Positions 9,690 to 18,064 of a stretch of DNA of 64,000 bases are shown here, in pieces. The stretch spans positions 1 through 64,000 of the forward strand of contig FAXN01000039.1 of the NCBI GenBank assembly GCA_001493195.1, read 5' to 3'. The DNA comes from Sulfurovum sp. enrichment culture clone C5. Lineage in GTDB: Bacteria > Campylobacterota > Campylobacteria > Campylobacterales > Sulfurovaceae. The number at the start of each line of letters is the position of its first letter. Positions within the stretch are counted from its first letter, which is position 1. Made by a program: the position numbers and the translations under genes. Under the pieces are notes generated by a model. It did not search any database, was not told the DNA's origin, and was given only the letters and a program-made list of their open reading frames with translations.

Positions 9690-10942
9690 AAAAAGTACAC
9701 TTTAAAACATTTGGGTGCAGGACAAATCAGTTTGACACTCAAATAATGTTATCAAATCTTAAAAACTTCACTATTGAAGATGATGATAGCACAAGTGATA
9801 TTATAGTCATCAACTCTTGTACTGTCACAAATGGTGCGGACAGCTCAGTAAGAGGCTACATATCATCCATAAAAAGAAAAAATCCAAATGCAAAAATTAT
9901 ACTAGCTGGATGCGGGGCTCATTCAAAAGGTGATGCTCTTTTTGAAGAAAATGCAGTTTTTGGAGTCATGGGACATTCTGAAAAATCAAATATCAATAAT
10001 CTTTTGCAAAAAGAAACCCCTTTTTATGAAATAGGTGATTTGAATTATGTAGATTCATCGATTGTTGAAAATTTTGTTGGAAAAAGTAGGGCATTTATAA
10101 AAATACAAGAGGGTTGTGACTTTGATTGTTCTTACTGCATCATACCGTCAGTAAGAGGAAGAGCAAGATCACACAAAACCGAAACAATACTAGAGCAAAT
10201 TTCTCTTCTGGCATCAAATGGTTATGGTGAGTTTATACTTACTGGGACAAATGTTGGTAGTTTTGGCAAGGATATAGATACAAATTTGGCAAAACTGTTA
10301 AAAAAAATATCTCTTATCAGGGGTGTTAGACGGATACGGATAGGAAGCCTAGAGCCGATACAAATAGATGATGAATTCAAAGAGTTGCTAGATGAATCAT
10401 GGATGGCAAAACATCTTCATATTGCCCTTCAGCATACTGATGATAAAATGTTGGGTATCATGAATAGGAGAAATAATTTTATTGAGGATGAAAAGTTGCT
10501 CAATTTTATTAGTCAAAAAGGTTATGCGATAGGTACTGATTTTATAGTTGGTCATCCTGGAGAAAGTGAGCAAATATGGGAAAATGCACTTGCAAGAATT
10601 AACGCCTTACCATTAACTCATATTCATGCTTTTACTTATTCAAAAAGAGATGCTACAGCATCATCGGTTATGAAAGATATAGTAAAGGGTGATATAGCAA
10701 AAGTAAGACATGCCGAACTTACAAATTGTATAAATGAAAAAAATAGAATTTTCAGAGAAAGCAACCATACAAATCTAGAAGTTTTGATAGAATCAACAAA
10801 AAATAAAAACTCATACAAAGGGTATGATCAATTTTATAATTTGCTAGAGGTTAAAAGCAAACTAGATTTGTCAAATAGCTGGATAATAGCCCAAAATGCA
10901 GAGGTAAGAAATGATAAAAACTTTTTTGAATATGAATGCTAA
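9686..10942 (+). CDS. mtaB: tRNA (N6-threonylcarbamoyladenosine-C2)-methylthiotransferase MtaB
   Basis: FGCRTNQFDTQ N-terminus; radical SAM motif CDFDCSYCIIPSVRGRARS; ILTGTNVGSFG. Confidence 0.95.
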   Translation: MKKVHFKTFGCRTNQFDTQIMLSNLKNFTIEDDDSTSDIIVINSCTVTNGADSSVRGYISSIKRKNPNAKIILAGCGAHSKGDALFEENAVFGVMGHSEKSNINNLLQKETPFYEIGDLNYVDSSIVENFVGKSRAFIKIQEGCDFDCSYCIIPSVRGRARSHKTETILEQISLLASNGYGEFILTGTNVGSFGKDIDTNLAKLLKKISLIRGVRRIRIGSLEPIQIDDEFKELLDESWMAKHLHIALQHTDDKMLGIMNRRNNFIEDEKLLNFISQKGYAIGTDFIVGHPGESEQIWENALARINALPLTHIHAFTYSKRDATASSVMKDIVKGDIAKVRHAELTNCINEKNRIFRESNHTNLEVLIESTKNKNSYKGYDQFYNLLEVKSKLDLSNSWIIAQNAEVRNDKNFFEYEC

Positions 10943-12566
10943 AAGATTAAAAACAATTGCATTATTGTTTGGTATTTTGGTAATTATAGTAATTATTGGA
11001 ATATTTAAAAACAACAATACAACAATCACAAGAGGTGAAGTAGAAAAGCTTGATAAGAATGGCACTATAACAAAAGTTATAGTAGATGGAAATTATCTAT
11101 ACCTCAATACAAAAAATAAATCTTATAGAATATATAAAGATGCTATTGATTATAAAGACTTTTTTGACAAATATCCAGTAGAAATCAAAGATGATGGTGT
11201 GGATTTGTCCATGATGGCAATATTTGCCATCATTATATTACTTGGTATTTTTTATATATCTAGCAAAAAAAAGGATTTGAATTTTTTAAAATCAAGCTCT
11301 TTTAACAAAAATGAAGCACAAACCCCAAGCGAACACATTTCCCCAATGAAAACAGATATAAAATTCAAAGATGTTGCTGGCATCGATGATGTAAAAGAAG
11401 AACTTGAAGAGATTATAGATTTTTTGAAAAATCCAAAAAAATACAAAAATTTTGATATAAGACTACCAAAAGGCGTGCTATTAGTAGGTCCTCCTGGTGT
11501 TGGAAAAACGCTTATAGCCAAGGCTGTGGCGGGAGAAGCTGATGTGCCATTTTTTTATCAAAGTGGAGCAACTTTTGTAAATATATATGTTGGTATGGGA
11601 GCAAAAAGAGTATCTGCATTATTTCAAATGGCGAAAAAAAATGCTCCTAGTATCATATTTATAGACGAAATTGATGCCATAGGTAAGAGTAGGGGTGGTA
11701 GACAAAGTGACGAAAGAGAAGCAACGCTAAATCAACTTTTAACAGAAATGGATGGTTTTGAAGATAGCTCTGGAGTTATCGTCATAGCTGCTACAAATAA
11801 GATTGATGTGCTTGATGATGCACTTTTGAGAGCTGGTAGATTTGATAGAAGAATCTTTTTGTCATTGCCAAGCATAGATGAGAGAATAAAAACACTTGAA
11901 CTTTATCTATCCAAAAAATCTCACAGTGTAGATGTGAGAGAACTTGCAAAAATGAGTATTGGATTTAATTTTGCTTCACTTTCAACATGGGTAAATGAAG
12001 CTGCACTTTATGCAATAAAAGAAAATAAAAGATATATAGAAACTAGTGATTTTGAAGCTGTAAAAGACAAAGTAATAACAGGAAAATCTAGATTTTTAAC
12101 ATATGATGATGAAGAGAGAAATATACAAGCAACATATCAAGCAGCAAAAGCATTACTTGCAACTTGGTATGATATAGGCTTTAGTAAAATTGGTATTGCT
12201 ATGCAAAACTTTGAAACGATGGATCATAACCTAACATCAAAAAATACGATGATAGAGAAGATAAAAGTTTACCTCGCTGGTTCAATTGCAACAAATTTAA
12301 AATACAAAAATATCTATTCAAATAGTATCAAGGATATAGAGTTAAGTAAAAATTTAGCAGATAAGATAATAAACGATTTTGAACTAATTCTTCAGAGTGA
12401 CACAAAGATAGAATCATCTGAGCAAATATTGCAAACGGCCAAAAAAGATGCTACTGCGATTTTGGAAAAATTAGATTCAACACTAGATGGTATAGCTGAA
12501 CATATTTTAGAAAATGAATTTATTACGCAAGAAGAAGTTAGAGAGATGCTTCGTGAAATTTTTTAG
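10911..12566 (+). CDS. FtsH-family AAA ATPase lacking a recognisable HEXXH zinc motif
   Basis: Walker A GPPGVGKT, Walker B IIFIDEIDAIG, SRH DALLRAGRFDRRI; position of canonical HEAGH reads YQAAK (IQATYQAAKALLATW). Confidence 0.9.
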   Translation: MIKTFLNMNAKRLKTIALLFGILVIIVIIGIFKNNNTTITRGEVEKLDKNGTITKVIVDGNYLYLNTKNKSYRIYKDAIDYKDFFDKYPVEIKDDGVDLSMMAIFAIIILLGIFYISSKKKDLNFLKSSSFNKNEAQTPSEHISPMKTDIKFKDVAGIDDVKEELEEIIDFLKNPKKYKNFDIRLPKGVLLVGPPGVGKTLIAKAVAGEADVPFFYQSGATFVNIYVGMGAKRVSALFQMAKKNAPSIIFIDEIDAIGKSRGGRQSDEREATLNQLLTEMDGFEDSSGVIVIAATNKIDVLDDALLRAGRFDRRIFLSLPSIDERIKTLELYLSKKSHSVDVRELAKMSIGFNFASLSTWVNEAALYAIKENKRYIETSDFEAVKDKVITGKSRFLTYDDEERNIQATYQAAKALLATWYDIGFSKIGIAMQNFETMDHNLTSKNTMIEKIKVYLAGSIATNLKYKNIYSNSIKDIELSKNLADKIINDFELILQSDTKIESSEQILQTAKKDATAILEKLDSTLDGIAEHILENEFITQEEVREMLREIF

Positions 12567-13071
12567 TGGTTTTGGATTTCAAAACGAACAAGAACTCTTT
12601 AATGATTTTTTGCCAAAAGGCGAATATGTTGTAGCTGGTTTTAGCTATGGAGCCATAAAAGCTTTTGAATATGTCTTAAATAACAAAAATAGAATAGATA
12701 GACTTATACTTTTGTCGCCAGCATTTTTTCAAAACACATCCGATGCATTTAAAAGAACTCAAATGAGATATTTTAACTCCAACAAAGACGAATATATGAA
12801 AAATTTCATGGACAATGTTTGTCTGCCAAATAACCATATATCACTTCAAAAATATATCCGTGATGTAGAAGCAAAACAATTAGATGAATTACTAAGTCAT
12901 AAATGGGAATTAGAGGATATAAAAAATATTATAGATAAAAATGTAAAAATAGAAGTATTTTTTGGCGAAATGGATAATATTATAGATACAAAAGTTGCAA
13001 ATGATTTTTTTTCAAAACTAACAACAACTTATTTCATCAAAAAGGCAGGGCACTTACTAGATGTTAAATAA
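12553..13071 (+). CDS. bioV: Alpha/beta hydrolase, BioV-like pimeloyl-ACP methyl ester esterase
   Basis: GTG start at 12553 (MKFFSGFGFQNEQELF); GFSYGAIKAFEYV nucleophile elbow; FFGEMDNIID; AGHLL catalytic His. ORF track start 12514 judged too early. Confidence 0.7.
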   Translation: MKFFSGFGFQNEQELFNDFLPKGEYVVAGFSYGAIKAFEYVLNNKNRIDRLILLSPAFFQNTSDAFKRTQMRYFNSNKDEYMKNFMDNVCLPNNHISLQKYIRDVEAKQLDELLSHKWELEDIKNIIDKNVKIEVFFGEMDNIIDTKVANDFFSKLTTTYFIKKAGHLLDVK

Positions 13072-13696
13072 TAAAAATATCACAATTTGGTTTAAATATA
13101 CTCTATTTGTACTATTTGTCATTACTTGGATATGGTCTAGCATATCTCCTTTTAGTAGGCATGATTGGATATTGGAAAATATTTTAGTAATAATGATATT
13201 GGCTGTTTTAATCCTAACTTATAAAAAATTTAAGTTTTCAGATGCCTCATATATAATGATCACTATATTTCTTATTTTGCATGAATTTGGAGCACATTAT
13301 ACATATTCTCTAGTGCCTTACGATGAGTGGCTAAATTATAATTTTGGTTTTACAATAAATGGCTTGATGGGCTGGGAGAGAAATCATTTTGATAGATTTA
13401 TACATCTTATTTTTGGTATCCTTTGGGCATATCCTGCAAAAGAATTTTTTGCTAGAAAATTATCATTGAACAATAACTGGAGTTGGTTTTTTGCTCTAGA
13501 AAGTGTAATGTCTTTTTCACTTCTTTATGAGCTGATAGAGTGGTTGGTTGCCGTGGTATTTGGTGGGGAACTCGGTATGCAGTACCTTGGAACACAAGGA
13601 GATATTTGGGATGCACACAAAGATATGCTTTTAGCAACGCTAGGTGCCATGGTTCCTATAGTCATAGCGATTATTATAAAAAAATTAAAAAGGTAA
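13061..13696 (+). CDS. DUF2238/YjdF-like membrane protein
   Basis: Multi-TM; HEFGAHYTYSLVPYDEW, NHFDRFIHLIFG, YLGTQGDIWDAHKDMLLATLGA. Confidence 0.85.
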   Translation: MLNNKNITIWFKYTLFVLFVITWIWSSISPFSRHDWILENILVIMILAVLILTYKKFKFSDASYIMITIFLILHEFGAHYTYSLVPYDEWLNYNFGFTINGLMGWERNHFDRFIHLIFGILWAYPAKEFFARKLSLNNNWSWFFALESVMSFSLLYELIEWLVAVVFGGELGMQYLGTQGDIWDAHKDMLLATLGAMVPIVIAIIIKKLKR

Positions 13697-15371: not shown

Positions 15372-15983
15372 TTAACTTATTTTAGTTGCAGTCATTGCAA
15401 ATACTGTAAACGCACCATTTGGCTTTTCTATGATATTTGCTGTTTCAAACTTAATATCATCAAAACCAACTTCTTTTGCAATAGCTTCCAATTCACCTCT
15501 ATCGAAACCAAAATGAAATACTCCAGTATTGTCTCCATGAAAAGTTCCATCTTCACTATCTAAATCAGCAATTGCTATAAAACCACCACTATTTACCATA
15601 TTAAATAATTTTAAAAACAACTCTTTTATATTTTCTACATGATGGATAGTCATAGAGGATACGACACCATCGAACTTCAAATCATTTCCACACTCAGATA
15701 TATCACCATAAATAACTTCTGTATCACATAAAAATTCATTTTGTTTTGCCAAAAACTCATCTAGCATGGATTTTGAATTGTCTATCGCAACTATTTTGCT
15801 TATATTTGGAGCCAAAAAATAGGTCAAAAGCCCTGTACCAGCACCAAAATCAGCTAAAACCATCTCTTTTTGTATTGATATATTTTTTAATATTACATCT
15901 GCTATCTCTTTTGCATTTTTTACTCTAGTGCTGCTCATGTCCCAATTTTTTGACTTTTTTTCAAATAAATCTTGTTTTTTCAT
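15372..15983 (-). CDS. Class I SAM-dependent methyltransferase
   Basis: VLADFGAGTGLLTYFLAPNISKIVAIDNSKSMLDEF; start taken at ATG 15983 (MKKQDLFEKKSKNWD). Confidence 0.92.
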   Translation of the reverse strand: MKKQDLFEKKSKNWDMSSTRVKNAKEIADVILKNISIQKEMVLADFGAGTGLLTYFLAPNISKIVAIDNSKSMLDEFLAKQNEFLCDTEVIYGDISECGNDLKFDGVVSSMTIHHVENIKELFLKLFNMVNSGGFIAIADLDSEDGTFHGDNTGVFHFGFDRGELEAIAKEVGFDDIKFETANIIEKPNGAFTVFAMTATKIS

Positions 15984-15991
15984 ATAAATTC

Positions 15992-16663
15992 CTAAAATAA
16001 AGTATCTTTTTTTTCTAATTTCACGGTATCCCAAAAGAATTCTACGTGTTTTTCAAATAATGATACCATAGAAGAGGTTGGTTTTTTGTCAATTTTGAGC
16101 AAAGTTATCTGCATTTGATAGAAAAATAGGGGTGAAAAGAACTCATTTGCTAAAAGTAGAGGGTCTGATGATTTGATCATTTCATCTTGCATCATAGAAA
16201 ATAGGTAAGATGATAGTTTTTTGACATTTTCTTGGTAAAAATATTCATTATATATCTCTCTAATATTAATATTATTAAATATTTCCTGCATAAGTAGCTT
16301 AAATAGTGCCTCATTTTTACTATCAAAGCTTATAAGCTTGAAAGTAGTGGCAATGCTAGAAAGCAACGTCTTGCCGTGCTTATAGGCATCTGGGGCATTG
16401 AAATTTGAAAAAAGGCTTGTGATAGCGGAGCTTGTAAGCTCGGCAACTAAAGTAGAGAGTATTTCGTCTTTATTTTTGAAGTGATTGTACAATGCACTCT
16501 GCTTTATACCCAGTTCACCAGCTATATCCCTTACGCTTGTAGCCTTATATCCACTTGTAGCGAATAATTTAAGAGATACATCTAGGATAGAGCTTCGTGT
16601 TCTATCGCCCCTAGACAGGGGCTTTGATTCATTTAGTTCATTATCCATATCTTTACTCCTCAT
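15992..16663 (-). CDS. TetR/AcrR-family transcriptional regulator
   Basis: RSSILDVSLKLFATSGYKATSVRDIAGELGIKQSALYNHFKNKDEILSTLV TetR HTH. Confidence 0.95.
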   Translation of the reverse strand: MRSKDMDNELNESKPLSRGDRTRSSILDVSLKLFATSGYKATSVRDIAGELGIKQSALYNHFKNKDEILSTLVAELTSSAITSLFSNFNAPDAYKHGKTLLSSIATTFKLISFDSKNEALFKLLMQEIFNNINIREIYNEYFYQENVKKLSSYLFSMMQDEMIKSSDPLLLANEFFSPLFFYQMQITLLKIDKKPTSSMVSLFEKHVEFFWDTVKLEKKDTLF

Positions 16664-16681
16664 ATATTATTATAATTATAG

Positions 16682-16825
16682 TGAACATTTGTTCATTTGT
16701 CAATAATATAGTTCAAGAATTAGGTGAACACTTGTTAATATAATAACTTTATGACTATATTTAAAAAGAACACTCGTTCATTAATGTAATAGTGTTATAT
16801 ATACATAACTGAACGCTTGTTAATT
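16682..16825. promoter_or_regulatory. Four-copy, 42-43 bp-phased operator-like array upstream of the TetR gene
   Basis: TGAACATTTGTTCATT (16682), TGAACACTTGTTAATA (16725), AGAACACTCGTTCATT (16767), TGAACGCTTGTTAATT (16810). Confidence 0.7.
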
Positions 16826-17245
16826 TAATACCTTGTATACGCCTATATATCGTACTTTTAGTTTATGTGTATTTATTGATACATCGAATATGGTCAATTT
16901 TTGAAAAGCTATGGTGTTTTTAAATTAAATAATATTATATTAACTATAATTGCTTATGGGTTTTAGTGTTGGAATTAGCTGGAGAAACTTTGGGTATCTA
17001 AAATATATGTTTTGTGTTTATGAACTCAATGACCAAAATTAGAAATGAAGATAAATGATAAAAACAATTAGCACTATAAAATTTTAAATAAAGCCAAAAG
17101 ATCAAAAATATACTAAAAATAGTAAAAAATAATATCGCTAGATCTATTTATAAAAACACTTGAGTAGGGTTACTTATGTTTTTTATAGAATTTATATTAT
17201 GTTAACCATATAATAATTATGCGCAAAAATACCATTGATATATTT

Positions 17246-18064
17246 TTATTGGCACAATTTTCTAATTTTTTCTTTTCCATTTCTGACTATTATTTGACCT
17301 TCTTCGGCTTGCTTATAAAATTCAATAATATCTTCATCCTTGATATTATTTATTTTAAACTGTTTATCCATTAAATCAAATTTTTTATCATTTTCATCTA
17401 TAGCTTTGAATATATTTTTATTGAAATAAATACACATACGCTTGTATTTCTCTACATCCTCCGATTCTCCTACAATATAAAAAAAAGAATCTACATTATT
17501 AATATTTATAAATTTTGCTCTCTCGGTATTATTATTTAATAATTGATCCAATGACATCAAGCCATCCATTGCTTGCAAAACCATAAACTCTCTTTCGGCA
17601 TATCTATATGACAAAATAAAAGTAGTAGCATTTGTAATAAGTACTAATGCCATTGCACCAAATAGTATTTTAGTTCTATTTTTCTCAACATTATTACTAT
17701 TTTGATGTCCATAGATATAAACTGCTATATATCCAGGTAACAAAATCAAAAACCAAAGAGCTATAAAAGCAAGAAGTAAAAAAAATTTTGAACTATTTAT
17801 TGACATAATATCTATTTCATAAAAAAATTCAAAAAAATTCCAAGGAATAATTAATATTAGAAAAATTTGCCAAAATATTGGTTTAAAAATTTTTTTATCA
17901 AAACAAAAACCATAAATTCCTATTAAAAAAATGATTGATATAATAAAGTGAAAAAAATTGATTACTCCTAAATCTTTTACTGTATCAATAAAATAATAAC
18001 CAACTATGCATACTAACACAATGAAATATATTTTAAAAAATATTTTACTTATTGATAACGTCAT
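17246..18064 (-). CDS. Membrane protein of unknown function
   Basis: 272 aa, several N-terminal hydrophobic segments, no recognised family. Confidence 0.6.
   Translation of the reverse strand: MTLSISKIFFKIYFIVLVCIVGYYFIDTVKDLGVINFFHFIISIIFLIGIYGFCFDKKIFKPIFWQIFLILIIPWNFFEFFYEIDIMSINSSKFFLLLAFIALWFLILLPGYIAVYIYGHQNSNNVEKNRTKILFGAMALVLITNATTFILSYRYAEREFMVLQAMDGLMSLDQLLNNNTERAKFININNVDSFFYIVGESEDVEKYKRMCIYFNKNIFKAIDENDKKFDLMDKQFKINNIKDEDIIEFYKQAEEGQIIVRNGKEKIRKLCQ

Follow-up and report, generated by a model that had tools for sequence, protein, structure and literature searches.

Four helically phased sites beside dif, probable operators of a neighbouring TetR-family gene in Campylobacterales

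Four short palindromes precede a TetR-family gene (tetR) in the window, the stretch of 64,000 nucleotides from Sulfurovum sp. enrichment culture clone C5 that was analysed here. On comparative evidence they quite probably constitute the operator array of that gene, with the protein presumably binding them as dimers. The retention of four phased sites next to the chromosome-dimer resolution site dif throughout the order suggests a DNA-binding protein that controls its own expression and is connected with the end of replication. The Campylobacterales gain a concrete terminus candidate, consisting of a protein and a DNA site, that is testable in strains of Sulfurovum and Sulfurimonas that are cultivable and non-pathogenic.

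All four sites are present where a sequence-only reading had located them, and as 14-mers they are spaced 43, 42 and 43 bp (Table 1); the proposal that they are dimeric TetR operators gains support from the comparisons, and we treat them as putative operators. The motif GAACRYTYGTTMAT has five copies in the 1.6-Mb genome, namely the four array sites and a fifth that lies within a coding sequence; in the same genome the reversed pattern, used as a control, has none. With this single exact copy outside the array, the motif is not a common genome-wide repeat. Shuffled upstream regions contained a single site in 0.6% of cases and two or more in none. Among 11 genomes of the genus, including the window's own, ten have a tetR orthologue (65-94% identity), and alignment of the upstream regions revealed the array before the gene in all ten, at spacings of 42-43 bp; in one of them (G004) three sites are present and the contig ends there. 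The sites are conserved in their letters and the spacers are not: the majority letter in the genus alignment averages 90% in site columns, 65% in spacers and 55% beyond the array. Such strong purifying selection speaks against the idea that the array is the residue of a lost target operon. Sulfurovaceae conserve, in addition, a weaker fifth dyad at a fixed distance past site 4 (about 31 bp centre to centre, or approximately three turns), which reads roughly AAG-CC-N8-GGG and is unlike the operators.

Table 1. Features of the tetR-dif locus in the window
Feature	Coordinates	Strand	Remarks
Class I SAM-dependent methyltransferase, next gene of the tetR operon	15372..16034	-	Pfam Methyltransf_11; longest ORF, true start probably near 15980
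TetR-family gene (tetR)	15992..16663	-	probable start 16648; Pfam TetR_N; orthologues throughout the order
Predicted tetR promoter	16675..16703	-	-35 TTGACA 16698-16703; 17-bp spacer 16681-16697 with site 1; -10 TATAAT 16675-16680
Putative operator site 1, TGAACATTTGTTCA	16682..16695	.	inside the tetR promoter spacer; kept in 10/10 same-genus orthologues
Putative operator site 2, TGAACACTTGTTAA	16725..16738	.	array aligned among same-genus orthologues
Putative operator site 3, AGAACACTCGTTCA	16767..16780	.	array aligned among same-genus orthologues
Putative operator site 4, TGAACGCTTGTTAA	16810..16823	.	array aligned among same-genus orthologues
Fifth dyad, conserved	16835..16858	.	weaker than the operators; columns -35 to -17 stay in register in 66 Sulfurovaceae-like loci
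dif, XerCD chromosome-dimer resolution site, TTTTTATAGAATTTATATTATGTTAACC	17180..17207	+	single copy in the genome; agrees with dif of Sulfurovum and Sulfurimonas as published (PMC2731167)

Across the order, 163 distinct TetR orthologues were gathered, nearly all of them with an array. A strict scan with a fixed consensus detected four sites in 90 of them, three in 32, two in 18, one in 11 and none in 12; when the scan was relaxed, most of the short arrays regained an in-phase site, the third or the fourth, and the contig ends of MAGs remove some flanks of loci. All 339 adjacent spacings measure 21-24, 31-34 or 41-45 bp, i.e., two, three or four helical turns, with means of 22.06, 32.11 and 42.36 bp and a standard deviation of about 0.5, and half-turn gaps are absent (0/339). 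The Sulfurovaceae mostly follow a 4-4-4 pattern of turns and Sulfurimonas-like loci a 3-3-3 pattern, and the remaining orthologous arrays are 2-2-2 or mixed (e.g., 4-3-4, 2-3-4 and 3-2-4). As spacing counts are not phylogenetically independent, changes were counted on the protein tree, where the spacing class switched at least eight times and the phase was kept. Because the spacings are quantised across the order and the classes have switched this often, there is strong evidence, from sequence comparison, that selection keeps helical phase and not exact distance. Evolution has altered the operator spacing several times, order-wide and always by whole turns, which amounts to a natural experiment on helical phasing. 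The earlier proposal of one-face phasing with probable cooperativity, made from a single array, is thereby borne out by quantised spacings in the order at large. Since two, three and four turns are all tolerated, rigid packing of neighbours appears less likely than a contact made by way of bending or wrapping of the DNA, or of a flexible protein interface. It counts against the operator model that in two orthologues tetR adjoins dif without an array, and that one orthologue has a single site.

The protein itself has a TetR_N domain (Pfam PF00440, 4.9e-15, above the cut-off), and its AlphaFold model (pLDDT 88.6) shows a TetR fold that matches TetR structures, the nearest of which are ordinary ligand-responsive regulators. 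Site 1 had been described as lying about 20 bp upstream of the tetR start; the upstream location is correct and the distance to the probable start is ~34 bp, with relatives starting at MDN (window 16648). On the minus strand the sequence reads TTGACA-AATGAACAAATGTTCAC-TATAAT, with site 1 within the 17-bp spacer. Of 85 Sulfurovaceae-like loci, 82 have site 1 in this promoter frame, which never encloses sites 2-4. We also considered that every site might have its own promoter, and rejected this idea as the TTGACA/TATAAT frame occurs at site 1 only. A palindrome over the gene's own promoter and conserved alongside the gene, as in TetR autoregulatory operators, is thus found here, and it favours the autoregulation that the sequence-only reading had suggested. 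By standard promoter logic, autorepression of tetR is highly likely because site 1 occupies the promoter spacer. Cooperative autoregulation is a well-supported reading of these loci, in which the cooperativity is presumed. Among the Sulfurimonadaceae and the difH clades, the same promoter pattern on a site was found in only 5 of 61, which counts against the operator model. Upstream of tetR in one locus (L190), the operators have drifted to TAAACA-type half-sites and the promoter frame is retained, likely reflecting a change in specificity.

Directly after tetR, a family of SAM methyltransferases is encoded in 70 loci of the Sulfurovaceae, giving a two-gene operon headed by tetR. This operon, together with the TetR fold, would suit an ordinary repressor that responds to a ligand and controls tetR and the methyltransferase gene as a stress operon, and for which the nearness to dif is merely inherited gene order. 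We consider this explanation quite possible, if short of probable. However, no conserved operon partner of tetR was found in the Sulfurimonadaceae and the difH clades, and the methyltransferase is absent beside tetR in them, yet the array and the dif linkage stay; other neighbours change freely. DUF2238 membrane proteins recur near tetR: one is encoded at 13061-13696 in the window, the gene follows the methyltransferase in many Sulfurovaceae, and in two genomes (G005 and G010) it is divergent from tetR, past the array and dif.

Autoregulated TetR-family repressors of the EthR, CprB and HapR types bind several operators cooperatively. The system described here resembles them in its TetR fold, its short palindromic operators and its predicted autoregulation via the promoter, but differs in having four separate operators, a whole-turn spacing that has been altered in quantal steps only, and a fixed linkage to dif. 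According to the mechanism we propose, a TetR dimer on site 1, being placed between the -35 and -10 elements, would block RNA polymerase at the common promoter of tetR and the methyltransferase gene. Dimers on sites 2-4, on the same face of the DNA and at whole-turn distances, would stabilise the occupancy of site 1 cooperatively, and about 140 bp would probably be bent or wrapped into one nucleoprotein complex, which would stand beside dif at the replication terminus. More speculatively, the terminus position may matter in itself, for example by reporting the replication of the terminus or by linking it to division or segregation. Taken as a whole, a cooperative operator array of the adjacent repressor is a likely mechanism; protein binding, cooperativity and repression are the steps that we infer. 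Comparison of the genomes itself shows that the sites are conserved, that their spacings are quantised in whole turns, that the promoter is overlapped, that dif is adjacent and that other non-coding sites are absent, although the adjacency to dif could be inherited gene order. A comparable arrangement is the promoter compaction by Helicobacter pylori Fur, where, according to the abstract (PMC5007355), several repressor operators condense promoter DNA at short range; unlike TetR, Fur belongs to an unrelated, metal-responsive family.

Where an insertion or rearrangement parts tetR from dif (G008, G064 and G016), the array has remained beside tetR instead of dif, and no array was found in the dif neighbourhoods of genomes without a detected tetR. 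A mobile element may have caused the separation in G008, since phage-like genes lie past the array on the dif side (L028, 8099-15123) and dif is on a different contig. Genome-wide pattern scans with a fixed consensus found no non-coding copies outside the array that would indicate a wider regulon, apart from one site near the beginning of an ORF in a Sulfurimonadaceae genome. In eight genomes of this family, 38 of 39 off-array perfect palindromes lie well inside ORFs and the remaining one, in a single genome, very near the 5' end of an ORF; several are conserved solely through protein conservation, and near-matches in the window's own genome are mostly coding. A wider regulon was rejected on these grounds, and the suggestion of a decoy array finds no support either, because no other non-coding sites were found with which it could compete. 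The earlier statement that no divergent target gene is present within the next ~400 bp proved true, as none is conserved in the window's family; the far side of the array varies between species, and such a target was rejected.

The dif site was found as a sequence conserved beyond the array, on the side away from tetR. It has the features of a classical dif: a 28-bp palindrome with a conserved XerD arm, present in single copy near the terminus. Within 136 orthologous loci with at least 900 bp of upstream sequence, dif (97) or difH (23) occurs no more than 2.1 kb away in 120, and the array lies between dif/difH and tetR in 116 of the 116 loci having both. Viewed from the dif side, 43 family genomes have a dif match, and in 33 of these tetR is within about 2 kb; the orientation of dif relative to tetR is constant in 94 of the 97 classical-dif loci. 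In two loci, L200 and L210, tetR is about 100 bp from dif and the array is not recognisable. The end of a 272-aa ORF in the window (17246-18064, minus strand), which has a hydrophobic N-terminal half and no Pfam match, is 39 bp from dif. No relative was found beside tetR in other loci, and the ORF may therefore have been inserted at dif recently.

The array locus is at the replication terminus. Because the GC skew of the window is too noisy for this purpose, the terminus was placed from the positions of dnaA and from dif coordinates in the literature. The gene tetR is opposite dnaA, at 0.44-0.56 of the chromosome from it, in 24 of 25 mapped genomes; the exception (G012, locus L189) has a tetR pseudogene (3 TGA, 1 TAA) without an array, and no dif nearby. 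In Carnoy and Roten 2009 (PMC2731167), dif of Sulfurovum NBC37-1 is given at 1,186,929 and the turn of the GC skew at 1,189,307. Genome G047, evidently this strain by its dif position, has dif at 1,186,915-1,186,934 and tetR at 1,187,692-1,188,339. Similarly, difH of Nitratiruptor SB155-2, given at 1,001,399 in the same survey (PMC2731167), can be set beside tetR of G209 at 1,000,617-1,001,240 (minus strand).

In the difH clades, the array is 45-123 bp from difH and the divergent neighbour is xerH, assigned via PDB 5jjv (E 4e-103). The switch between XerCD/dif and XerH/difH accounts for two changes on the protein tree, and since tetR adjoins difH and xerH in the difH clades, its linkage has outlived a change of recombination system. 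Such closeness to difH and xerH would be expected if the array controlled Xer recombination, either as accessory sequences of dif, like those of ArgR/PepA at cer, or by regulating the divergent xerH. This is nevertheless an unlikely explanation: the array-to-classical-dif distance ranges from 34 to 1906 bp, and is 32 kb in one genome, in contrast to the fixed distance to the core site in cer-like accessory geometry; a xer gene next to the array is lacking from most XerCD-type loci; and dif sites without tetR have no array. A replication-fork barrier akin to Tus-Ter or RTP, to which the terminus position and the several putatively strong protein sites would be suited, is highly improbable, given that the sites are all on the same side of dif and nearly symmetric, and that site 1 clearly has the placement of a promoter operator.

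MatP has a ribbon-helix-helix fold. Like MatP-matS and ZapT, a member of the MerR family (PMC7188993), the protein studied here is a predicted DNA-binding protein linked to the terminus, but its fold is different and it has one array instead of many dispersed sites. Closer precedents are SlmA and RefZ, TetR-family DNA binders with chromosomal roles and sites at conserved chromosomal positions (PMC6657595). A function of this kind comes into consideration mainly because the only evident non-coding target of the repressor is its own promoter, retained next to dif order-wide, which is odd for a normal metabolic regulator. In such a case TetR would be mainly a SlmA-, RefZ- or MatP-like factor of chromosome structure or division, the array would serve to load it at dif, and autoregulation would just set its level. 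We regard this as possible, in view of the TetR-family precedents, the lack of other non-coding targets, the missing operon partner outside Sulfurovaceae, and an adjacency to dif/difH that outlasted both the exchange of recombination systems and a wholesale turnover of neighbours. On the other hand, the protein scores far under the family cut-offs for SlmA (NF007015, 23.4 bits against 120) and RefZ (NF037937, 57.4 against 180), so that membership in either family was rejected, and its nearest folds are those of ordinary regulators. Nor does one short array at the terminus resemble the dispersed sites of SlmA, RefZ and MatP: SlmA sites number dozens chromosome-wide and avoid the terminus, and the five RefZ motifs are on both arms and near oriC (PMC6657595). 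A separation of 21-32 kb between tetR and dif is, moreover, tolerated in two genomes. It is therefore as a tentative and somewhat doubtful proposal that we suggest that, in Campylobacterales, a self-regulated, phased complex of four TetR dimers by dif/difH marks or organises the terminus, coupling it with division or segregation; if true, the TetR fold would here be the basis of a terminus system. Autoregulation is compatible with a landmark as well as with an ordinary regulator, and these explanations are not mutually exclusive.

No link between this TetR and dif was found in the open-licence papers searched, and the literature searched names no MatP- or SlmA-like factor in Campylobacterales. 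The available part of the 2009 survey of dif/Xer and difH/XerH in this order (PMC2731167), whose published recombination site is the one neighbouring the array, does not mention an adjacent TetR gene or array.

Elsewhere in the window, positions 10911-12566 (plus strand) encode an FtsH-like AAA ATPase that is conserved in the genus. Its zinc-protease HExxH motif has seemingly been lost and reads ATYQAAKALLATWYD, and the protein is possibly an inactive FtsH paralogue.
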